64,000 nt of DNA, from positions 2,868,282-2,932,281 of the forward strand of contig NZ_CP028105.1 of the NCBI RefSeq assembly GCF_003019675.1, in the 5' to 3' direction. A program made the translations under genes and the position numbers. Source of the DNA: Fusobacterium ulcerans (GTDB lineage Bacteria; Fusobacteriota; Fusobacteriia; Fusobacteriales; Fusobacteriaceae). Under the pieces are notes generated by a model. The model was given only the letters and a program-made list of their open reading frames with translations. It was not told the DNA's origin and made no database searches. This document shows, piece after piece, positions 16,380-54,725 of this stretch (its first letter is position 1; the number at the start of each line of letters is the position of its first letter).

Positions 16380-16408
16380 CGAATCGTAAAAAAGAAAATA
16401 ATAATTAA

Positions 16409-16495
16409 AACTGCTAGGGGAGCTGAAAAGCTGAGAAGGATAAAACCTGACCCTTGGAACCTGATCTGGATAGTACCAGCGGAGGGAAGCAAGTT
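16409..16495 (+). promoter_or_regulatory. TPP riboswitch (THI element)
   Basis: Hallmark blocks in order: GGGGAGC, GCTGAGA, ACCCTTGGAACCTGATCTGG (as ACCTGA.CCCTTGGAACCTGATCTGG, split across 16446-16470), TAGTACCAGCG and AGGGAAGC. P1 forms from AACTGCT (16409-16415) and AGCAAGTT (16488-16495). It binds thiamin pyrophosphate and here precedes a terminator, so TPP should switch thiCSGHFE off. Confidence 0.95.
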
Positions 16496-16540
16496 ATCTT
16501 TTCAGCCTTATTTAGAATTATCTGGCAGAAAGTAGCACAT

Positions 16541-41841: not shown

Positions 41842-41860
41842 CTAAAAGTAAGGTAATAAA

Positions 41861-41925
41861 ACTCATATATACCTGTAATATGGACAGGAGTTTCTACGGC
41901 CAACCTTAAAATGGCTGCTATGGGT
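41861..41925 (+). promoter_or_regulatory. Purine riboswitch, guanine/hypoxanthine class
   Basis: P1 ACTCATA / TATGGGT (41861-41867, 41919-41925); P2 CCTGT / ACAGG with loop AATATGG; J2/3 TTTCTAC; P3 CGGCCA / TGGCTG; J3/1 CTATG. The base that pairs with the ligand is C (GCTATG), which specifies guanine or hypoxanthine rather than adenine. It fits control of the de novo purine genes downstream. Confidence 0.93.
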
Positions 41926-42009
41926 GAAGTATACATATATAATCTTTTGTTTTTTGATTTTTTTGAAAAAAAGATTTACTTCATCTGGAATAGAATTAGA
42001 AATGAAGTA
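41924..42009 (+). promoter_or_regulatory. Candidate expression platform of the purine riboswitch
   Basis: TACTTCAT (41977-41984) can pair with GTGAAGTA (41924-41931), which invades the P1 3' strand, or with ATGAAGTA (42002-42009). These are mutually exclusive. An inner AATCTTTT / AAAAGATT stem supports the upstream fold. Neither fold ends in a T run, so it is not itself a plain terminator. Confidence 0.55.
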
Positions 42010-42038
42010 CTGAAAACAATTTGAAGGAGGATTATACT

Positions 42039-42125
42039 ATGTTATCTCATAAAAGAATAAAAAAGAAAATAGTACAGAACATAAATAATGTAGTAAATCA
42101 ACCTAAGGAAAAAACAATGGTCTAA
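42039..42125 (+). CDS. 28-codon leader open reading frame before fhs
   Basis: ATG 42039 follows a perfect AAGGAGG at 8-nt spacing, encodes a basic 28-residue peptide (MLSHKRIKKK...EKTMV) and stops at TAA 42123-42125. The stop codon lies in the 5' arm of the terminator 42119-42165, so a terminating ribosome would mask that arm. No homologue recognised; whether the peptide matters is unknown. Confidence 0.5.
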   Translation: MLSHKRIKKKIVQNINNVVNQPKEKTMV

Positions 42126-42165
42126 GTGTGCACTTAACGGAATGAGTGTGTACTTAGGCCTTTTT
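42119..42165 (+). terminator. Strong terminator between leader ORF and fhs
   Basis: GGTCTAAGTGTGCAC (42119-42133) pairs over 15 bp (four G-U) with GTGTGTACTTAGGCC (42146-42160), then five T. A transcript must pass it to reach fhs and the pur genes, so it is a likely attenuator. Confidence 0.88.
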
Positions 42166-42199: not shown

Positions 42200-43864
42200 G
42201 TGAAAACTGATATTCAAATTGCACAGGAAGCTAAAATAGTCAACATTATGGAAATCGCAAAAAAGATAGGACTTGATGAGGACAGCATCGAACAATATGG
42301 TAAATATAAAGCTAAGGTAGATTTGAAAGTACTTAAAAACCTAGAGAACAAGAAAGATGGGAAACTGGTATTAGTTACAGCTATCACACCTACTCCTGCT
42401 GGGGAAGGGAAATCAACTGTTACAGTTGGACTTACACAAGCACTTAACAAACTTGGAAAATCTTCTATTGCAGCTCTTAGAGAACCGTCATTGGGGCCGG
42501 TATTCGGAATGAAAGGTGGAGCTACTGGTGGAGGACATTCACAGGTTATACCTATGGAGGATATAAATTTACATTTTACAGGAGATCTTCATGCTATTGG
42601 AGTTGCTCACAACTTAATAGCAGCTTGTATAGATAATCATATCAATTCTGGAAATGCTCTGGATATAGATCTTACTAAAATAACTTGGAAAAGAGTTCTG
42701 GATATGAATGACAGAGCACTTAGAAATATAGTGATAGGACTTGGGGGAAAGGCTAATGGAATTCCTAGAGAAAGTTCATTCCAAATCACTGTTGCATCTG
42801 AAATAATGGCGGCATTATGTCTTGCTACATCACTTTCAGATCTTAAAGATAAAATAAGAAGTATGGTATTTGGTTATGCAAGAGATGGAAAAGCTCTTAA
42901 AGTAGGAGATCTTAAAATAGAAGGAGCTATTGCAGCACTTCTTAAAGAAGCCATCAAACCAAACCTTGTACAGACATTAGAAAATACACCAGTATTTATT
43001 CACGGAGGACCTTTTGCAAATATAGCTCATGGATGCAACTCTATTCTAGCTACTAAACTTGCACTTAAACTTTCTGATTATGCAATAACTGAAGCTGGAT
43101 TTGCTGCTGATCTTGGAGCAGAAAAATTTCTTGATATAAAATGCAGAAAAGGTGGACTTACTCCTAACTGTGTAGTTGTAGTAGCAACTGTAAGAGCTTT
43201 AAAACACCATGGTGGAGCTAAGGAACTTTCAGAAGAGAATCTTGAAGCATTAGAAAAAGGAATAGCTAACTTAGATAAACACATAGAAAATATGAAAAAA
43301 TATAATTTACCAGTAGTAGTTGCTATTAACAGATTTGTAAGCGATACTGAAAAAGAACTTGAATTTGTTGATAAACACTGTAGAGAATTTGGAGTGCCAG
43401 TAGCTCTTTGTGAAGTATGGGCTAAAGGTGGAGAGGGAGGAATCGCTCTTGCTGAAGAAGTTCTTGCTCAATTAGAAAAAGGAACTGACAACTATACTCC
43501 ACTATATGATTTAGATATGAGTATAAAAGAAAAAATAGAGAAAATAGCAAAAGAAATATATGGAGCAGATGGAGTAGAATTTACTGGTCCTGCTAAGAAA
43601 ATGCTTAAAACTATAGATGAACTTGGATATGGAAAACTTCCAGTGTGTATGTCAAAAACTCAAAAATCATTATCAGATAATGCAGCACTTCTAGGAAGAC
43701 CTACTGGATTTACAGTATCTGTAAAAGAATTGAGAATATCAGCTGGAGCAGGATTTATAGTAGCTATGGCAGGAGATATAATAGATATGCCTGGATTACC
43801 TAAAAAACCAGCAGCTGAATCTATAGACATTGATGAAAATGGAAAGATTGACGGACTATTCTAA
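42200..43864 (+). CDS. fhs: Formate-tetrahydrofolate ligase
   Basis: 554 aa, GTG start after AAGGGAGG. ATP-dependent synthesis of 10-formyl-THF from formate. P-loop [33 protein letters not shown], and [10 protein letters not shown] near the end are conserved. Heading the purine operon makes sense: 10-formyl-THF feeds PurN and PurH. Confidence 0.97.
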
Positions 43865-43915: not shown

Positions 43916-46900
43916 ATGAATTATCGTATTTATGTTGAAAAGAAAGCTGGATTTGATTTAGAGGCTAAGAGATTAGAAAATGAATTAAAAGAAAGTTTTC
44001 AAGATCTAAAACTTTCAAAAGTAAGACTTCTTAATTGTTATGATGTATTTAATATTGAAGCTGCTGAATTAGCAGAAGCTAAAAAGCTTATATTTTCAGA
44101 AATAGTTACTGATACTGTAACTGAAACTCTTGATACTAAAGGAGCAAAATATTTTGCAGTAGAATTTTTACCAGGACAGTTTGACCAGAGAGCCGACTCA
44201 GCTATGCAGTGTTTGAATCTGATATCTGATAAAAATCAAAATGTATCTGTTACTAGCGGAAGAGTTATTATCCTTGAAGGAGAAATAACAGAAGCAGATG
44301 TAGAAAAAATTGAAAAGTATTACATCAACCCAGTTGAGATGAGAGAAAAAGATCTTACTAAATTAGAGATAGAAGAAGGAGAAAAGGCACAGGATGTACC
44401 TGTTTTCACTGGATTCATAAATTACAACATGGATGAATTAAAATCTTTCAGAGAAGAGCTTGGACTAGCTATGACATTAGCAGATGTGGCTTTTGTGCAG
44501 GAATACTTTAAAAATACTGAAAAGAGAGACCCTACTGAAACAGAAATAAAAGTGTTGGATACTTATTGGTCTGACCATTGCAGACATACAACATTTGAAA
44601 CAAAAATCAAAGATATAGTATTCCCAAAAACTTCTTTTGGAGATACACTTCAAAAAGCTTTTGATGAATATTTAAAAGCGAGAGAGTTTGTACATGGAGA
44701 GAGACTTGAAAAGAAATATATCTCTCTTATGGATATGGCAACTATCTGTGGAAAAGAAATGAGAAAAAGCGGAAAACTTGATGACTTAGAAGTATCTGAT
44801 GAGATCAATGCCTGCTCTGTATATATTGATGTAGATGTAGATGGACAAATGGAGAAATGGCTTCTTATGTTTAAGAACGAAACTCATAACCATCCTACAG
44901 AGATTGAACCATTTGGAGGAGCTTCTACTTGTCTTGGTGGAGCTATAAGAGACCCATTATCAGGAAGATCATATGTTTATCAGGCTATAAGAGTAACAGG
45001 TTCTGGTAATCCATTGGAAAAACTTGAAGATACACTTCAAGGAAAACTTCCTCAAAAGAAAATAACTACTGGAGCAGCAAGTGGATATGCAGCTTATGGT
45101 AACCAGATTGGACTTACAACTGGACATGTATGTGAAATATATCATGATGGATATAAAGCAAAAAGAATGGAAGTTGGAGCAGTAGTTGGTGCTGTACCAG
45201 CTGACTGGGTAAGAAGAGAAAACGCTTCTAAAGGAGATATAGTTATCCTGTTAGGAGGAAAAACTGGAAGAGACGGCTGCGGAGGAGCAACTGGATCATC
45301 TAAAGAACATACAGGAGATTCATTGAGATTATGTGGTGCAGAAGTTCAAAAAGGAAATGCACCAGAAGAAAGAAAAATTCAAAGATTATTCAGAAATCCA
45401 GAAGTTACTAGACTTATAAAAAAATGTAATGACTTTGGTGCTGGAGGAGTATCAGTAGCTATTGGAGAATTAGCTCCAGGGCTTGATATAAATCTTGATG
45501 TAGTTCCTACTAAATACTTTGGACTTAGCGGTACTGAACTTGCTATTTCTGAATCACAAGAGAGAATGGCAGTAGTAATCGAAGCTAAAGATAAAGAAAA
45601 ATTTATGGAACTTGCAGGAAAAGAAAACCTTTTAGCAACAGAAGTTGCAGTAGTAACAGATGACAATAGACTTGTTCTTAATTTTAAAGGTAAGAAAATA
45701 GTAGATATTTCAAGAGAGTTCCTTGATACTAATGGAGTTACTCAAGAAACTACTGTAGAAGTTGAAGACATAAAAGAAAATACTCCATTGAATGCAGTTA
45801 ATTTTGAAGGAGCAGATATTAAAGACAGATGGATGAATATGCTTTCTTCTTTAAATGTAGCTTCTCAAAAAGGACTTATGGAGATATTTGATGCTACAAT
45901 AGGAGCAACAACAGTGCTTATGCCTTTTGGTGGAAAATATCAAATGACACCTACTGATGTAAGTGTACAGAAAATACCTCTATTAAAAGGAGAAACTGAT
46001 ACAGCTTCTGCTATTACTTGGGGATATGACCCAGTGCTTTCATCTTGGTCGCAATTCCATGGAGGAGCTTATGCAGTAGTTGAATCTCTTGCTAAATTAG
46101 TTGCAGTGGGAGCAGACTACAAGACTGTAAGACTTTCATTCCAAGAATACTTCCAAAAACTTGGACAAAATCCAATGAACTGGGGAAAACCATTCTCAGC
46201 ATTGTTAGGAACTATAGAAGCACAAAGAGGATTTGGAATTCCAGCTATTGGTGGAAAAGACTCAATGAGTGGAACATTTAATGATATTCATGTACCACCT
46301 ACACTTATATCTTTTGCAGTAACTCCTGTAAAAGCAAGTGTTGTTATATCACCAGAATTTAAAGCTGCTGGAAATAAAATATACTTAGTAAGACATCATA
46401 TGCTTGATAATTATATGCCAAATATAGAAGAGCTTAAAGAAAACTTTGAATTTGTATATGAAAACATTAAAAATGGAACTATCCTATCAGCAATGACTTT
46501 AAAAAGAGGTGGAATAGCTGAAGCTGTAAGTAAAATGACTCTAGGAAACAGAGTTGGAGCTAAGATAGCTGATCTTGGAGAAGAGCTGTTCAAACTTGGA
46601 TATGGAACATTTGTAGTAGAAACTTCTAAAGAGCTTACAGGTAAAAACGTAGAGTTATTAGGAGAAACAATAAAAGAGTACAAGATTGTAGTTGGAGATA
46701 AAGAAATCTGTATGACTGAAGGAGAAAAGGTATGGTTAGATAAACTATTCCCAGTATTCCCTCACAAAACAATAGAAAAAGTAGAAAACTACATCTGGAC
46801 ACCATATGAGAAAAAAGAAATAATAGTATGTAAAAATAAAATTGCTAAACCAAGAGTATTAGTACCAGCATTCCCAGGAACTAACTGTGAATATGATTCA

Positions 46901-47641
46901 GCTAGAGTATTTGAAAAAGCTGGAGCAGAAGCTAATATACTTTTATTCAGAAATATAACTCAAGACTATATCAATGATTCAATAGAAAAAATGGTAAAAG
47001 AGATAAATAATTCACAGATCCTTATGTTCCCAGGTGGATTCAGTTCTGGAGACGAGCCAGATGGATCAGGAAAATTCATTGCAACTGTACTTACAAATCC
47101 TAAGATAGCAGAAGCAATAGCTAAATTCCTAGAAAGAGATGGATTGATACTAGGTATCTGTAACGGATTCCAAGCTCTTGTAAAATCAGGACTTCTACCA
47201 TATGGAGAGATTGGAAAAGTTACTGAAAATTCTCCTACTCTTACATTCAACAAGATAGGTAGACACGTTTCTCAAATGGTAAAAACAAAAGTTACTTCAA
47301 ATAAATCACCATGGTTGGCAGGAATAGAAACTGGAGAAGAATTTGAAATAGCTGTATCACATGGAGAGGGAAGATTCTTTGCCAATGATGATGTTATTAA
47401 AAAACTATTTGAAAATGGACAGGTTGCAACTCAATATGTAAATCTTGATGGAATTCCTACTAATGAGTTTAGATTTAACCCTAATGCTTCTACTTGTGCT
47501 ATTGAAGGAATTACTTCAATAGATGGTAAAGTATTTGGTAAAATGGGACACTCTGAAAGAGCAGGAAAGAATATTTTCAAAAATATTACTGGAAACAAAG
47601 AGCAGAAAATATTTGAAAATGGAGTTAAATACTTTAAATAG
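43916..47641 (+). CDS. purL: Phosphoribosylformylglycinamidine synthase, single-chain
   Basis: 1241 aa large-type FGAM synthase with PurS-like, PurL and glutaminase parts in one chain. Converts FGAR, glutamine and ATP to FGAM. Visible: DTYWSDHCRHTTFETK, KNETHNHPTEIEPFGGA, and a C-terminal class I amidotransferase domain with PAFPGTNCEYD, MFPGGFSSGDE, nucleophile Cys in GICNGFQAL and a His/Glu pair further on (SHGEGRF). This is the fused form usual in Gram-negatives and some anaerobes, not the split PurSQL of Bacillus. Confidence 0.96.
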   Translation: MNYRIYVEKKAGFDLEAKRLENELKESFQDLKLSKVRLLNCYDVFNIEAAELAEAKKLIFSEIVTDTVTETLDTKGAKYFAVEFLPGQFDQRADSAMQCLNLISDKNQNVSVTSGRVIILEGEITEADVEKIEKYYINPVEMREKDLTKLEIEEGEKAQDVPVFTGFINYNMDELKSFREELGLAMTLADVAFVQEYFKNTEKRDPTETEIKVLDTYWSDHCRHTTFETKIKDIVFPKTSFGDTLQKAFDEYLKAREFVHGERLEKKYISLMDMATICGKEMRKSGKLDDLEVSDEINACSVYIDVDVDGQMEKWLLMFKNETHNHPTEIEPFGGASTCLGGAIRDPLSGRSYVYQAIRVTGSGNPLEKLEDTLQGKLPQKKITTGAASGYAAYGNQIGLTTGHVCEIYHDGYKAKRMEVGAVVGAVPADWVRRENASKGDIVILLGGKTGRDGCGGATGSSKEHTGDSLRLCGAEVQKGNAPEERKIQRLFRNPEVTRLIKKCNDFGAGGVSVAIGELAPGLDINLDVVPTKYFGLSGTELAISESQERMAVVIEAKDKEKFMELAGKENLLATEVAVVTDDNRLVLNFKGKKIVDISREFLDTNGVTQETTVEVEDIKENTPLNAVNFEGADIKDRWMNMLSSLNVASQKGLMEIFDATIGATTVLMPFGGKYQMTPTDVSVQKIPLLKGETDTASAITWGYDPVLSSWSQFHGGAYAVVESLAKLVAVGADYKTVRLSFQEYFQKLGQNPMNWGKPFSALLGTIEAQRGFGIPAIGGKDSMSGTFNDIHVPPTLISFAVTPVKASVVISPEFKAAGNKIYLVRHHMLDNYMPNIEELKENFEFVYENIKNGTILSAMTLKRGGIAEAVSKMTLGNRVGAKIADLGEELFKLGYGTFVVETSKELTGKNVELLGETIKEYKIVVGDKEICMTEGEKVWLDKLFPVFPHKTIEKVENYIWTPYEKKEIIVCKNKIAKPRVLVPAFPGTNCEYDSARVFEKAGAEANILLFRNITQDYINDSIEKMVKEINNSQILMFPGGFSSGDEPDGSGKFIATVLTNPKIAEAIAKFLERDGLILGICNGFQALVKSGLLPYGEIGKVTENSPTLTFNKIGRHVSQMVKTKVTSNKSPWLAGIETGEEFEIAVSHGEGRFFANDDVIKKLFENGQVATQYVNLDGIPTNEFRFNPNASTCAIEGITSIDGKVFGKMGHSERAGKNIFKNITGNKEQKIFENGVKYFK

Positions 47642-47688
47642 AATTTAAATATTTTAAATAATAGATATTCTCAGGAGGATAATAAAAG

Positions 47689-48168
47689 ATGAAAGTTGCC
47701 ATAATATTTGGTAGTAAATCAGATACAGATAAAATGAAGGGAGCAGCTAACTGCTTAAAAGAGTTTGGAATTGAGTACTCAGCTCACGTTCTTTCTGCTC
47801 ACAGAGTGCCAGAAAAATTAGAAGAGACATTAGAAAAATTAGAAAAAGATGGATATGAAGTAATAATAGCAGGAGCTGGGCTGGCTGCCCACCTTCCTGG
47901 TGTTATAGCATCTAAAACTGTACTTCCTGGAATAGGGGTGCCAATCGAGGCAGCTTTTAACGGTATGGATGCACTTCTTTCAATAGTGCAGATGCCTAAA
48001 TCTATTCCAGTAGCAACTGTAGGAGTAAATAATTCATACAATGCTGGAATGCTTGCTGTACAAATGCTTTCTTTAAAATGTCCTGAATTAAAAGAGAAAC
48101 TTGTAAAATTCAGAAAAGACATGAAAGCAAAATTTATAGCTGATAATGAAACTGGGGTAGAGCTATAA
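47689..48168 (+). CDS. purE: 5-(carboxyamino)imidazole ribonucleotide mutase / AIR carboxylase PurE
   Basis: 159 aa. Motifs GSKSDTDKMKGA, HVLSAHRVPEKL, GAGLAAHLPGVIAS and GVPIEAAFNGMDALLSIVQMP (in two overlapping parts). Forms CAIR from AIR. No purK is beside it, so it could be either the mutase class with purK elsewhere or the CO2-using class; I cannot decide from sequence alone. GGAGGA site before ATG. Confidence 0.94.
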   Translation: MKVAIIFGSKSDTDKMKGAANCLKEFGIEYSAHVLSAHRVPEKLEETLEKLEKDGYEVIIAGAGLAAHLPGVIASKTVLPGIGVPIEAAFNGMDALLSIVQMPKSIPVATVGVNNSYNAGMLAVQMLSLKCPELKEKLVKFRKDMKAKFIADNETGVEL

Positions 48169-48231
48169 GATAATCTAGTCAAAAATTTTTAATTTTTAAT
48201 ACATTAACTATTTCTAGGAGGAAAAAAAGAA

Positions 48232-48948
48232 ATGTCTGCACAAAAAAAAGAATTTATCTATGAAGGAAAAGCTAAACAAGTATATTCAACTGATGACGAG
48301 AATCTAGTTGTTATCCATTACAAAGATGATGCAACAGCAGGTAACGGAGCTAAAAAAGGAACTATCGAAAACAAAGGAATAATGAATAACAAAATAACTG
48401 CTATGTTGTTTGAAATGCTTGAAAAAAATGGAATAAAAACTCACTTGGTAGAAGTACTTAATGACAGAGATCAACTTTGTCAAAAAGTAAAAATATTCCC
48501 ATTAGAAGTAATAGTAAGAAACGTTATAGCTGGATCAATGGCTAAAAGAGTAGGAGTAGAAGAGGGAACTAAACCTGTAAATACTATATTTGAAATCTGC
48601 TATAAAAATGATGCTTATGGAGATCCATTAATCAACGATCACCATGCAGTTGCATTAGGACTTGCTACTTATGAAGAATTAGCTGAAATCTACAGAATAA
48701 CTGGAGAGATCAACAACTTACTAAAAACTTCTTTTGATAAAATCGGAATTACTTTAGTTGACTTCAAAATAGAATTTGGTAAAAATAGTAAAGGAGAAAT
48801 CCTTCTTGCAGATGAAATCACTCCAGATACTTGCAGATTATGGGATAAAGAAACTGGTATGAAATTGGATAAAGATAGATTCAGAAGAGATTTAGGCGGA
48901 ATCGAAGAAGCGTATATTGAAGTTTTAAAAAGATTGGGGGCTGAATAA
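48232..48948 (+). CDS. purC: SAICAR synthase
   Basis: 238 aa. Joins aspartate to CAIR with ATP. Motifs: [53 protein letters not shown]. Its last base overlaps the purF start (TAATG), so the two are translationally coupled. Confidence 0.97.
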
Positions 48949-50345
48949 TGAACTGCACAGAAATGATGTTAGCAAAGGACAAAATGGAAGAGGAATGTGG
49001 AGTTTTCGGAGTATATAGTAAAACTCAAAAAGAAGTTTCACAATTAACTTACTATGCCCTATATGCTCTTCAACACAGAGGACAGGAAAGTGCAGGAATA
49101 ACTGTCTCAAATAATGGAGAATTAGTAACATATAAGGGGATGGGACTTACAGCTGATGTATTTACTCAAGAAACTTTGAATAATCTTCAAGGGAACGCAG
49201 CAATAGGACATGTAAGATATTCTACTACTGGTGAAAGCAAAATAGAAAATGCACAGCCTTTAGAAAGTAGATTTAAACTTGGTCAGATAGCAGTTGCTCA
49301 CAATGGAAATCTGACAAATACAAGAGTAATAAGAGAATTATTAGAAGATGGTGGAGCTACATTCACTTCAACTACTGACTCAGAAGTAATAATCAAAATG
49401 GTAGCAAGAAAAGCTGTAAATGGTTTTGAAGAAGCTATCAGAAGTACAGTTGGAGCGATAAAAGGAGCTTATGCTCTAGTAATACTAGCAGACAACAAAC
49501 TTATAGGAGTAAGAGATCCATATGGAATCAGACCTCTATGCCTTGGAATGAATGAAGAGGGAGATTACTTCCTTGCTTCTGAATCATGTGCTATAGATTC
49601 TATAGGTGGACATTTAATAAGAGATGTAGAAGCTGGAGAAATGGTAATCATAGATGAAACAGGAGTTAAATCAATCAGATATGCTGAAAATAATAAAGTA
49701 GCACCTTGTTCATTTGAGCACATTTACTTTGCTAGACCTGACAGTATCATAGATGGGATAAATGTATATGAAGCTAGAGTAAGAGCTGGAAGACTTCTAG
49801 CTAAACAGATGAAAATAGAAGCTGACATTGTTATTGGAGTGCCAGATTCTGGAATACCAGCAGCTATTGGATATGCTGAAGAAAGCGGAATACCATATGC
49901 TATGGGACTTATCAAAAACAAATATATTGGAAGAACATTCATTAAACCAACTCAAGCTTTAAGAGAGCAGGCTGTAATGGTAAAACTTAATCCATTAAGA
50001 GTACAGCTTGAAGGAAAAAGAGTAGTAATAATTGATGACTCTCTAGTAAGAGGAACAACAAGTAAAATACTTATTGATTTAATAAGAAGAGCAGGAGCAA
50101 AGGAAGTTCACTTCAGATCAGCTTCTCCGGCAGTTAAATATTCTTGTTTCTATGGAATAGATACAGCACATAGAGATGAGCTTATAGCTGCTAGAATGAC
50201 AGTTGATGAAATCAGAAAAGAGATAAATGCAGATACATTGGATTATTTATCAATGGATAATATGATAAAATCATTAGATTGTAAAGATTATTGTGTAGGA
50301 TGTTTCAATGGAGTATATCCTATGTGCACACCAACAGAAGAGTAA
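48948..50345 (+). CDS. purF: Amidophosphoribosyltransferase
   Basis: 465 aa, commits PRPP to purines. A 16-residue propeptide precedes the glutaminase nucleophile Cys17 (EEECGVFGVY). The PRPP loop VVIIDDSLVRGTT is present. C-terminal cysteines (CKDYCVGCFNGVYP) match the [4Fe-4S] ligands of the Bacillus-type oxygen-sensitive enzyme, suited to an anaerobe. GGGGG just before ATG. Confidence 0.97.
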   Translation: MNCTEMMLAKDKMEEECGVFGVYSKTQKEVSQLTYYALYALQHRGQESAGITVSNNGELVTYKGMGLTADVFTQETLNNLQGNAAIGHVRYSTTGESKIENAQPLESRFKLGQIAVAHNGNLTNTRVIRELLEDGGATFTSTTDSEVIIKMVARKAVNGFEEAIRSTVGAIKGAYALVILADNKLIGVRDPYGIRPLCLGMNEEGDYFLASESCAIDSIGGHLIRDVEAGEMVIIDETGVKSIRYAENNKVAPCSFEHIYFARPDSIIDGINVYEARVRAGRLLAKQMKIEADIVIGVPDSGIPAAIGYAEESGIPYAMGLIKNKYIGRTFIKPTQALREQAVMVKLNPLRVQLEGKRVVIIDDSLVRGTTSKILIDLIRRAGAKEVHFRSASPAVKYSCFYGIDTAHRDELIAARMTVDEIRKEINADTLDYLSMDNMIKSLDCKDYCVGCFNGVYPMCTPTEE

Positions 50346-50367
50346 AAAAATTATTTGGGAGGAAAAA

Positions 50368-51369
50368 ATGGCAATTTCTTATAAAGAAGCTGGAGTAGAT
50401 AAAGAAGAGGGTTACAAAGCAGTAGAACTTATGAAAAAAGCAGTGGCTAAAACTCAAAACAGTAGTGTACTTAATGGACTTGGAAGTTTTGGAGCTATGT
50501 ATGAATTAGGAAAATATGAAAATCCTGTATTAGTTTCTGGAACTGATGGAGTAGGAACAAAACTTGAAGTAGCATTAACATCAAAAAAATATGATACTGT
50601 AGGAATAGATGCTGTGGCCATGTGTGTAAATGACGTACTTTGTCATGGAGCACAACCTATATTCTTCTTAGACTATCTAGCTTGTGGAAAACTAGATGCT
50701 GAAGTAGCTGCTGAACTTGTGTCAGGAGTTGCAGAGGGATGTTATCAGGCAGGAGCTGCACTTATAGGTGGAGAAACTGCTGAAATGCCTGGATTCTATA
50801 AAGTGGGAGATTATGATATTGCTGGGTTCTGTGTAGGAGCAGTAGAAAAATCTAAAATAGTAAATGGAAGTACAACTTCTGAAGGAGATATCCTTATAGC
50901 TATCCCATCTTCTGGAGTACATAGTAATGGATTCTCTTTAGTAAGAAAAGTAATAACTGATTATACTAAAGATTTCAATGGAAAACCTATCAGTGAAACT
51001 CTTTTAACACCTACAAAAATATATGTTAAAGCTGTAATGGCTGTATTAGAAAAATATAATATAAAAGGAATGGCTCACATAACTGGTGGAGGACTTCCTG
51101 AAAATCTACCTAGAACTATAAGTGAAGGACATCAACCTGTAGTATTCAAAGAAAAATTAAGAGTTCTTGATATATTCAAATATATTCAAAAAGAGGGAGA
51201 AATTCCTGAGAATGAAATGTTTGGAACATTCAACATGGGAGTAGGATTTGTTCTAGTAGTAGACCCTAAAGATAAAGAGGGTGTAATAGAAGAATTAGCA
51301 AAACATGGAGAAGAAGCTTTTGAAATAGGATATGTTCAAAAGGGAGAGAAAGGCCTATGTTTAAGATAG
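50368..51369 (+). CDS. purM: AIR synthase (phosphoribosylformylglycinamidine cyclo-ligase)
   Basis: 333 aa from ATG 50368, which has GGGAGG before it; an upstream in-frame ATG at 50308 would overlap purF and is rejected. Motifs: SGTDGVGTKLEVA, GGETAEMPGFY, PSSGVHSNGFSLVRK, HITGGGLPENLPR. Converts FGAM to AIR. Overlaps purN by 13 bp. Confidence 0.96.
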   Translation: MAISYKEAGVDKEEGYKAVELMKKAVAKTQNSSVLNGLGSFGAMYELGKYENPVLVSGTDGVGTKLEVALTSKKYDTVGIDAVAMCVNDVLCHGAQPIFFLDYLACGKLDAEVAAELVSGVAEGCYQAGAALIGGETAEMPGFYKVGDYDIAGFCVGAVEKSKIVNGSTTSEGDILIAIPSSGVHSNGFSLVRKVITDYTKDFNGKPISETLLTPTKIYVKAVMAVLEKYNIKGMAHITGGGLPENLPRTISEGHQPVVFKEKLRVLDIFKYIQKEGEIPENEMFGTFNMGVGFVLVVDPKDKEGVIEELAKHGEEAFEIGYVQKGEKGLCLR

Positions 51370-51932
51370 CAGTATTAGTATCAGGAGGAGGAAGCAATCT
51401 TCAATCTATAATAGAGAAGTCAAAAAGCGGCGAGCTGGCATGTGAAGTAGCCTGCGTCATTGGAGACAGAGAATGTTATGGAGTGGAGAGAGCAGCTGAG
51501 CAAGGGATAGTAAGCTGTATTTTAGATAGAAAAGTCTTTAAAAAGGAATTGTGCAAAGAAATAGACAGAGTCGTTTCTGAAAAAGGAGTTGACTTGATTG
51601 TTCTTGCAGGGTTCCTGTCTATAATAGATGAAGAATTTGTAGAAAAATGGAAGGGGAAGATAATTAATATCCACCCTTCTCTGCTTCCTAAATTTGGAGG
51701 ACCTGGAATGTATGGAATAAAAGTACATGAAGCAGTCCTTGCAGCAGGAGAGAAAGAAAGCGGATGTACAGTTCATTATGTAGATAGTGGCGTAGATAGT
51801 GGAGAAGTGATCTTTCAAGTAAAAGTGCCTGTATTGGAAGGGGATACTGCTGAAGTTCTTCAAAAAAGAATATTAGTAGAAGAGCACAAACTTTTACCAA
51901 AATCTATTTCTAAAATAATATCAGAAAGATAA
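51357..51932 (+). CDS. purN: Phosphoribosylglycinamide formyltransferase
   Basis: 191 aa folate-dependent GAR transformylase. Motifs: [33 protein letters not shown] (catalytic Asn-His) and [15 protein letters not shown] with the catalytic Asp. Uses 10-formyl-THF from Fhs. Confidence 0.96.
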
Positions 51933-51948
51933 AAAGGAGAAAAAGTTG

Positions 51949-53451
51949 ATGAAAAGAGCATTGATATCAGTTTTTGATAAGAATGGTATATTAGAATTTG
52001 CTAACTTTTTAGTTAATCACGGGGTAGAAATAATTTCAACTGGGGGAACCTACAAGCATTTAAAAGAAAATGGAGTACCTGTAATAGAAGTTGCTGAAGT
52101 TACTGGAGCACCTGAAATGCTTGATGGAAGAGTAAAAACTCTTCACCCAGTTATTCACGGAGGAATACTTGCTATAAGAGATAATGCAGAACATATGGCA
52201 ACTATCAAAGAAAGAGGAATATCAACTATTGATATGGTAGTTGTTAATCTTTATCCTTTCTTTAAAAAAGTAAATGAAGATCTTACTTTTGAAGAAAAAG
52301 TAGAATTTATAGATATTGGTGGACCTACTATGCTTAGATCTGCTGCTAAATCTTTCCATGATGTAGTAGTTATCAGTGATACTGCTGACTATGAAACAGT
52401 AATGAAAGAAATGAAAGCTGGAGAGGTTACATTTGAAACTAAGAAAAGACTGGCTGGAAAAGTATTTAACTTAACATCAGCTTATGATGCAGCTATATCT
52501 CAATTCCTATTAGGAGACGAGATGCCTAAATATCTAAATGCTTCATATGAGAAACTAATGGATCTTAGATATGGTGAAAACCCTCACCAAAAAGCAGCTT
52601 ACTATGTATCTACTACTGATACTGGAGCTATGAAGGATTTTGACCAATTAAATGGAAAAGAACTTTCATTTAACAACCTAAGAGATATGGACGTAGCTTG
52701 GAGAACTGTATGTGAATTTATAGAGCCTGCTTGCTGTGGACTAAAACACTCTACACCTTGTGGAGCAGCTATTGGTAAAAATGTTTATGAAGCTTATACA
52801 AAAGCTTATGAATGCGACCCAGTATCTATATTTGGTGGAATAGTAGCTCTAAATAAAGAAGTAGATGCTGATACAGCTAGAGAAATGGTAAAAATATTCT
52901 TAGAGATTGTTATAGCACCATCATTCACTGATGAAGCTTTAGAAGTACTTAGAACTAAGAAAAACCTTAGAGTTATAAAATGCAAACATACACCTCAGGA
53001 TAAAATAAATATGGTAAAAGTAGATGGAGGACTTCTTATTCAAGATGAAGATTTAAGCTTCACAACTGATTATGAAGCAGTTACTGAAAAAGCTCCAACT
53101 GCTGAAGAGATGGAAAATCTTATCTTTGGAATGAAGGTTGTAAAACATGTAAAATCAAATGCTATTGTTGTAGTAAAAGATATGATGGCAGTAGGAATTG
53201 GAAATGGTGAAACTAACAGAATATGGCCGACTAGACAGGCAATAGAAAGAGCAGGAGATAAAATAGAAGGAGCTATCCTTGCTTCTGATGCTTTCTTCCC
53301 ATTCAGAGACGTTGTAGACGCATGTGCAAAAGCTGGAATAAAAGCTATTATCCAGCCAGGTGGATCTATGAGAGATCAAGAATCTATTGATGCTTGTAAC
53401 GAACATGAAATGTCAATGGTATTCACTGGTATGAGACACTTCAAACACTAA
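51949..53451 (+). CDS. purH: AICAR transformylase / IMP cyclohydrolase
   Basis: 500 aa bifunctional enzyme making IMP. N-terminal cyclohydrolase ([32 protein letters not shown]) and C-terminal transformylase ([39 protein letters not shown]). Start ATG 51949 follows AAGGAG by 10 nt; TTG 51946 directly before it is possible. Confidence 0.97.
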
Positions 53452-53471
53452 TACAAAGGAGAAATTAAAGT

Positions 53472-54725
53472 ATGAAATTATTAGTAGTTGGCAGCGGTGG
53501 AAGAGAACATGCTATCTGCTGGAAAGTAAGCCAGAATAAAAATGTAGAAAAAGTTTTCTGTGCTCCCGGTAATGGAGGAACTGCAACACTTCCAAAGGGA
53601 GAAAATGTAAATATAAAAGGGATAGATGAACTTTTAGCATTTGCTGTAAAAGAAAATATAGATCTTACTATTGTAGGAAGTGAAGAACTTCTTGTAGATG
53701 GTATAGTAGATAAATTCCAGGAAAAAGGATTAAAAATATTTGGACCAGATAAAAAAGCTGCTCTTTTGGAAGGATCAAAAGCATACGCAAAAGACTTCAT
53801 GAAAAAATATGGAGTAAAAACTGCTGCTTATGAAGTATTTACTTGTCCTGAAAAAGCAAAAGAATATATAAAAACTTGTGAATTCCCATTAGTTGTAAAA
53901 GCTAGTGGACTTGCAGCAGGAAAAGGAGTTCTTATCTGTCAGAATCTGGAAGAGGCTCTGAAAGCTGTAGATGAAATCATGGTAGATAAAGTATTCAGCA
54001 GTGCTGGAGAACAAATAGTTGTTGAGGAATTCTTAGATGGTGTAGAAGCTTCTATTCTATCAGTAACAGATTCTAAAGTTATACTTCCTTTTATCTCAGC
54101 TAAGGATCACAAGAAGATAGGAGAAAAGGAAACTGGATTGAATACAGGAGGAATGGGAACTATAGCTCCTAATCCTTATGTTACAAAAGAAGTATATGAT
54201 GCTTTTATCACTGGAATTATGAATCCAACTTTAGAAGGAATCAAAGCTGAGGGAATGAACTTTGCAGGAGTTATTTTCTTTGGACTTATGATAAATGAAA
54301 AAGGGGTATACCTTCTTGAATACAATATGAGAATGGGAGATCCTGAAACTCAAGTAGTTTTACCTTTACTTGAATCAGACTTTGTAGAACTTCTTGAAAG
54401 TGGTTTAGAAGGTAAATTAGATACTGCTGATGTAAAGTGGAGCAGTAAATCAGCTTGTTGTGTAGTTCTTGCTTCTGGAGGATATCCTGAAGCTTACAAG
54501 AAGGGATATGCAATAACTGGAATAGAAAAAGCAGACAATATGGTATTTGTAGCTGGAGCTAAACTGGAAAATGGAGAGCTTCTGACTAATGGTGGAAGAG
54601 TATTGAATGTAGTAGCTGTTGGAGATAACTTGGAAGATGCAAGAGCGAAAGCTTATGCAGATGCTGAGAAGGTAGAATTCAAAGATAAGTGCTACAGAAA
54701 AGATATTGGAGTACTATATAGATAA
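53472..54725 (+). CDS. purD: Phosphoribosylamine-glycine ligase
   Basis: 417 aa ATP-grasp GAR synthetase. Motifs: VGSGGREHAI, CAPGNGGTA, VVKASGLAAGKGV, ILSVTDSKVILP, DHKKIGEKETGLNTGGMG (two adjoining parts), YNMRMGDPETQ. Last gene of the operon; purB, purA and guaAB are not present in the window. Confidence 0.97.
   Translation: MKLLVVGSGGREHAICWKVSQNKNVEKVFCAPGNGGTATLPKGENVNIKGIDELLAFAVKENIDLTIVGSEELLVDGIVDKFQEKGLKIFGPDKKAALLEGSKAYAKDFMKKYGVKTAAYEVFTCPEKAKEYIKTCEFPLVVKASGLAAGKGVLICQNLEEALKAVDEIMVDKVFSSAGEQIVVEEFLDGVEASILSVTDSKVILPFISAKDHKKIGEKETGLNTGGMGTIAPNPYVTKEVYDAFITGIMNPTLEGIKAEGMNFAGVIFFGLMINEKGVYLLEYNMRMGDPETQVVLPLLESDFVELLESGLEGKLDTADVKWSSKSACCVVLASGGYPEAYKKGYAITGIEKADNMVFVAGAKLENGELLTNGGRVLNVVAVGDNLEDARAKAYADAEKVEFKDKCYRKDIGVLYR

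Follow-up and report, generated by a model that had tools for sequence, protein, structure and literature searches.

A guanine riboswitch predicted to act on an intrinsic terminator through translation of a leader ORF upstream of fusobacterial fhs-pur

We propose, with a probability of about 70%, that the guanine riboswitch upstream of the fhs-pur operon of Fusobacterium ulcerans is a translational OFF switch for a short leader ORF, and that translation of this ORF controls the intrinsic terminator preceding the operon. The proposal rests on computation of the parts, their conservation, the dependence of Shine-Dalgarno (SD) opening on the state of the aptamer and the absence of an RNA antiterminator. 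The original prediction for this DNA had held that ORF translation, perhaps gated by the riboswitch, controls read-through into fhs-pur, in departure from the usual direct aptamer/terminator switch. Sequence, comparison and energy calculations support the role given to translation, the gating finds support in a cost of opening the SD and AUG that depends on aptamer folding, and the departure agrees with our failure to find an antiterminator in the 11 fhs leaders searched for one.

Anatomy of the F. ulcerans leader

The window, a stretch of 64,000 nucleotides, comes from a Fusobacteriaceae genome of 3.54 Mb in a single contig. Its fhs leader and purine operon contain the following features:

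41843-41940, + strand: purine riboswitch aptamer, guanine type (RF00167, 62.2 bits; pairing checked)
41861-41867 / 41919-41925, + strand: aptamer P1 helix (pairing checked)
41918, + strand: ligand-contact C, within GCTATGGG, aligned to the RF00167 consensus C
41922-41931, + strand: GGGTGAAGTA, overlapping the 3' strand of P1; 5' strand of the anti-P1 helix
about 41938-41955 (approximate), + strand: anti-SD region AUAUAAUCUUUUGUUUU, pairing with the SD/AUG in the minimum-energy fold with P1 formed
41977-41986, + strand: shared strand TACTTCATCT, pairing with 41922-41931 (anti-P1) or alternatively, as TACTTCAT, with 42002-42009
41977-41984, + strand: TACTTCAT, with two competing partners, GGGTGAAGTA or ATGAAGTA
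42002-42009, + strand: ATGAAGTA, alternative partner of TACTTCAT
42024-42030, + strand: perfect Shine-Dalgarno sequence AAGGAGG of the leader ORF
42039-42125, + strand: leader ORF of 28 codons, MLSHKRIKKKIVQNINNVVNQPKEKTMV, with its stop TAA (42123-42125) in the 5' arm of the terminator
42119-42160, with U-tract to 42165, + strand: intrinsic terminator hairpin, arms GGTCTAAGTGTGCACTTA / TGAGTGTGTACTTAGGCC (covariance model R1 match, E 5.9e-13)
42200-43864, + strand: fhs, formate-tetrahydrofolate ligase, first gene of the operon (NCBIfam NF010030, 914 bits)
43916-54725, + strand: purL-purE-purC-purF-purM-purN-purH-purD, ORFs forming the rest of the purine operon (purL and purE identified by NCBIfam; purC, purF, purM, purN, purH and purD named from sequence)

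The aptamer is of the three-way-junction type and its score of 62.2 bits, where the RF00167 gathering score is 37, places it in the purine riboswitch class, with the C at 41918 indicating guanine specificity as had been predicted. The competing pairings claimed for TACTTCAT are also borne out, 41977-41984 being able to pair with either 41922-41931 or 42002-42009; in the relative L034 the pairing of ATGAAGTA is preserved by compensation (TGCTTCAT / ATGGAGCA). The 28-codon ORF and its perfect AAGGAGG were found as described. The terminator, originally given as a 15-bp hairpin holding the ORF stop, does hold the TAA in its 5' arm, while its pairs number 18 rather than 15 when G-U is counted (-22.6 kcal/mol, z -6.5, 0 shuffles equally stable). 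The fold of the entire leader beats all 100 shuffles (z -3.1). For the window leader alone, an open frame from the ORF ATG to the hairpin has P = 0.047 by dinucleotide shuffle; once species are compared, an ORF entering the hairpin appears to be far beyond chance.

Two further riboswitches were observed. A second purine aptamer in the same genome precedes a nucleobase permease, and no comparable leader ORF was noticed there. At 16406-16504 of the window, a TPP riboswitch (76.6 bits) is followed by a hairpin and a gene, with no leader ORF evident by eye.

From the arrangement at fhs we infer guanine binding, translation of the ORF, blocking of the hairpin by the ribosome and a kinetic (co-transcriptional) choice between folds. 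When guanine is absent, the nascent RNA would first make the anti-P1 helix, whose 10 continuous pairs join 41922-41931 to 41977-41986 and would leave the SD and AUG relatively accessible. A ribosome could then initiate on the leader ORF and read into the 5' arm of the terminator; at or near the stop it would prevent the hairpin, and RNA polymerase would read through into fhs-pur. When guanine is present, P1 would be held and the anti-P1 strand freed, and the SD/AUG would be buried in a long helix with 41938-41955, so that no ribosome would load, the terminator would form and the operon would be OFF. The leader peptide itself would have no role. The sign fits repression of purine synthesis by guanine, an end product; translation that promoted termination instead would give the wrong sign.

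A leader ORF entering the terminator in related bacteria

Among regions upstream of fhs taken from Fusobacteriaceae, 27 leaders from six genera carry a hairpin recognisable as the same one. In all 27 it is entered by an ORF 16-51 codons long, and two leaders of another family also have an ORF running into theirs. A conserved leader ORF overlapping an intrinsic terminator, the hallmark of a ribosome-mediated attenuator, is thus present in 27 of 27 leaders within the family and in two outside it. Loss of the ORF where aptamer and terminator are kept would have spoken against the original prediction, and no such loss was seen among the family leaders. The two leaders from outside, in genomes of family f4 (g21), have aptamer, ORF and hairpin together at fhs. 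The ORF is preceded by a normally spaced SD in 25 of the 27; the exceptions, L056 and L062, have a deleted aptamer and a long spacing.

For single leaders, dinucleotide shuffles of the stretch from start to hairpin put the probability of an open frame at 0.005 to 0.22. The product over ten diverged clades is ~1e-13, an approximate value in that the starts were picked by their SD and the clades are related, which inflates it.

Stop codons lie at offsets of -2, 4, 15, 20, 26-27 and 38 nt from the start of the hairpin. Given the usual size of a ribosome footprint, a ribosome terminating at any of these stops would therefore mask the 5' arm wholly or for the most part. The original prediction had a ribosome at the stop codon blocking the terminator. 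Its ribosome on the 5' arm stands; the stop itself is not the key, since in relatives its position ranges from 2 nt short of the hairpin to the 3' arm. The comparison instead supports an amendment in which occupation of the 5' arm by the ribosome would matter and the position of the stop codon would not.

Relative to the hairpin, the ORFs occupy all three reading frames, and in genus g13 the stop changes frame between members. Within clades, substitutions fall evenly on the first, second and third codon positions, and most of them are non-synonymous. Peptides of different clades cannot be aligned, and their C-termini shift frame inside one genus. Because all frames are used and the substitutions are mostly non-synonymous, openness rather than the peptide appears to be kept, suggesting that translation up to the hairpin is under conservation and the peptide is not.

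Two other explanations for the hairpin and ORF were rejected. The free variation of stop position, frame and peptide speaks against codon-specific stalling. The arms are near-palindromic in some species, as a DNA operator might be; elsewhere they are non-palindromic with the pairing kept, and the motif occurs only once in the F. ulcerans genome, at fhs. A one-mismatch match to the hairpin in L173 falls within a coding region that is unrelated.

Coupling of the aptamer to the leader ORF and alternative readings

In energy calculations without ligand, 92-100% of the ensemble contains the anti-P1 helix in transcripts that end at 41986-42033, up to the point where the SD emerges. For transcripts reaching 42045-42080, opening the SD and AUG costs about 2-3 kcal/mol with anti-P1 versus 6-7 kcal/mol with P1. 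The ligand-bound fold thus hides the SD and the alternative frees it, by energy calculation, as expected of a translational OFF switch. Past ~42045 the SD-hidden fold is the more stable even without ligand, and the ribosome would have to load in time, before this fold wins. The equilibrium effect in the F. ulcerans leader is small (1.0 kcal/mol), and the switch would therefore have to be kinetic in this species.

Of 15 aptamer-bearing leaders, 14 become costlier to open at SD+AUG when P1 is forced, by 0.6-6.3 kcal/mol over the unconstrained fold, and for each of these 14 shuffled platforms reach the observed rise in 0-5% of cases. L043 bears an aptamer and has no coupling of P1 to SD/AUG opening. 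At least two platform designs link P1 to the SD. In the window clade, the anti-P1 strand competes via the 3' side of P1. In L036-L042, the P1 5' strand TCATATATACC can pair with a downstream GGTATATATGA-like sequence, and an overlapping anti-SD covers AAGGAGG.

Gating of the ORF by the riboswitch is not universal, because L043 lacks the coupling and the aptamer of L047-L049 seems to have a terminator of its own. In L047-L049 a hairpin and U-tract, identified by eye, lie between aptamer and ORF, which probably gives this aptamer a separate terminator placed ahead of the ORF. In L044, L045, L056, L062 and L074, Rfam detects no purine aptamer 5' of fhs, but an ORF and the terminator persist; L056 and L062 have an aptamer remnant that by eye resembles a deletion. 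We therefore amend the original prediction on a second point: the ORF/terminator module appears to be separable from the riboswitch.

Other features of the fhs region were recorded in passing. In genus g8 (L051, L054, L061, L063), a ZMP/ZTP riboswitch replaces the guanine aptamer and the leader ORF at fhs. Three genera have an additional purine aptamer immediately 3' of fhs (L046 3175-3272, L048 3152-3249, L057 2708-2805, L056 1405-1502 on the minus strand). In L041 (G001:C1:1306325-1307985), fhs appears as two overlapping matches, residues 1-489 and 485-554, possibly reflecting a frameshift or an assembly error in G001.

We searched 98 genomes of the phylum with the hairpin covariance model. 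It also matches at hpt-purA, at a gene for an FAD-dependent oxidoreductase and at genes that we take, from their sequence, to be guaB and guaA. In the hpt-purA and FAD-oxidoreductase leaders an ORF enters the hairpin, and Rfam detects no known aptamer (L207, L218, L252 and L253 at hpt; L203, L208-L213 and L227 at the FAD-oxidoreductase gene). The hairpin sequence differs in L227 and L253, yet an ORF enters or abuts the hairpin, with a weak SD. In the guaB and guaA leaders of relatives (L202, L204, L205 and L206), the fhs-type hairpin directly follows a purine aptamer, with no space for an ORF.

These matches raise the tentative possibility that 'ribosome-read terminators' are a general fusobacterial device for purine genes. 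A hairpin family CCTAAGTRTAYACTT...ACTTAGG, common to fhs-pur, guaA, guaB, hpt-purA and the FAD-oxidoreductase gene, would then have three readers: an RNA antiterminator under a guanine aptamer, an aptamer-gated ribosome on a leader ORF, and a leader-ORF ribosome alone. If so, leaders of the last kind would respond to purine nucleotides or to translation as such, and the common hairpin sequence could mark a shared factor.

The leaders without an aptamer at fhs, hpt-purA and the FAD-oxidoreductase gene, together with the apparently separate terminator of L047-L049, would also suit an arrangement in two independent layers. The riboswitch would affect SD access, and the ORF and terminator would mainly read another signal, such as overall translation, ribosome supply or a polymerase speed set by purine nucleotides, with the guanine aptamer secondary. 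At pyrBI, polymerase speed is set by UTP. We regard this arrangement as unlikely. Beyond the level of shuffles, SD access tracks the folding of the aptamer in 14 of the 15 leaders, which is hard to explain without gating, and a common A- or G-rich pause tract before the hairpin was not seen by eye across clades.

The common design is a direct transcriptional riboswitch, in which RNA pairing alone would decide the terminator and the ORF would be a bystander; the guaA/guaB leaders, with an aptamer immediately before a homologous hairpin, resemble it. In three of these four leaders an antiterminator-like strand adjoins the hairpin, with a strength only marginally above chance. At fhs, no upstream segment of the 11 leaders searched pairs with the terminator 5' arm better than shuffles do. 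The part needed for a direct switch is therefore absent, and these 11 leaders do not fall in that class. The terminator also lies ~200 nt from the aptamer, and the openness of the ORF is retained in all species. A direct switch at fhs thus seems improbable.

We give still less credence to control of fhs by translational coupling (termination-reinitiation) from the leader ORF, as with uPPE2 of M. tuberculosis. A relay from riboswitch to uORF to gene has precedent (PMC11260477), but fhs has its own SD, no stop/start overlap exists, and the ORF stop lies ~75 nt upstream of fhs with the terminator between. Least credible is that the ORF encodes a small protein with a function, regulated together with the purine operon: the good SD and start, and peptides that in some clades are basic and share their beginnings, would agree with one, but the ORF substitutions bear no trace of purifying selection and, as described above, the peptides neither align between clades nor keep their C-terminal frame in one genus.

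Comparison with known systems

In the literature searched, outside subscription journals, we found no riboswitch described as controlling an intrinsic terminator by way of leader-ORF translation and no earlier report of such an arrangement in Fusobacterium. If our reading of the fhs leader as an aptamer-gated, ribosome-read terminator is true, a riboswitch and a ribosome-mediated attenuator would act in series, the metabolite controlling the ribosome and the ribosome controlling the terminator. The natural series of leaders, in which the ORF is always kept and the aptamer is retained, missing or connected to a terminator of its own, makes the evolutionary order testable. The case also cautions against assuming that a riboswitch acts directly on the terminator that follows it, and against dismissing short ORFs in such leaders as non-functional on the ground that their peptides are unconserved.

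The fhs leader shares with other purine riboswitches (RF00167) the aptamer, the specificity C, the OFF logic and a purine operon as target. It differs in that the fusobacterial platform would hide the SD of a leader ORF, instead of hiding the SD of the main gene or forming a terminator. Ribosome-mediated transcription attenuation operates at pyrBI and ampC of E. coli. It is also found at bmrBCD of B. subtilis, where the terminator lies inside the leader ORF bmrB (PMC4191407). These systems likewise have an intrinsic terminator that overlaps a leader ORF, with translation of the ORF deciding read-through, and their inputs are antibiotics, nucleotide-dependent pausing or growth rate; initiation on the fhs-leader ORF is instead predicted to be set by a small-molecule riboswitch, and its stop position is free.

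In the M. tuberculosis relay from a B12 riboswitch to uPPE2 to PPE2, downstream expression depends on a translated leader ORF whose SD is hidden by the riboswitch, as we propose here. The output of that relay is mainly termination-reinitiation at an overlapping stop/start (PMC11260477), unlike the intrinsic terminator predicted for the fhs leader. Riboswitch control of Rho termination (Hollands 2012; Bastet 2017, as these are cited in PMC11260477 and PMC7815308) similarly converts a translation state into a transcription decision. It acts via Rho, whereas the fhs leader has an intrinsic hairpin and U-tract, proposed to be covered by the ribosome. The fhs leader therefore appears to join two known kinds of control in a new combination, a reading well supported by comparison and calculation.
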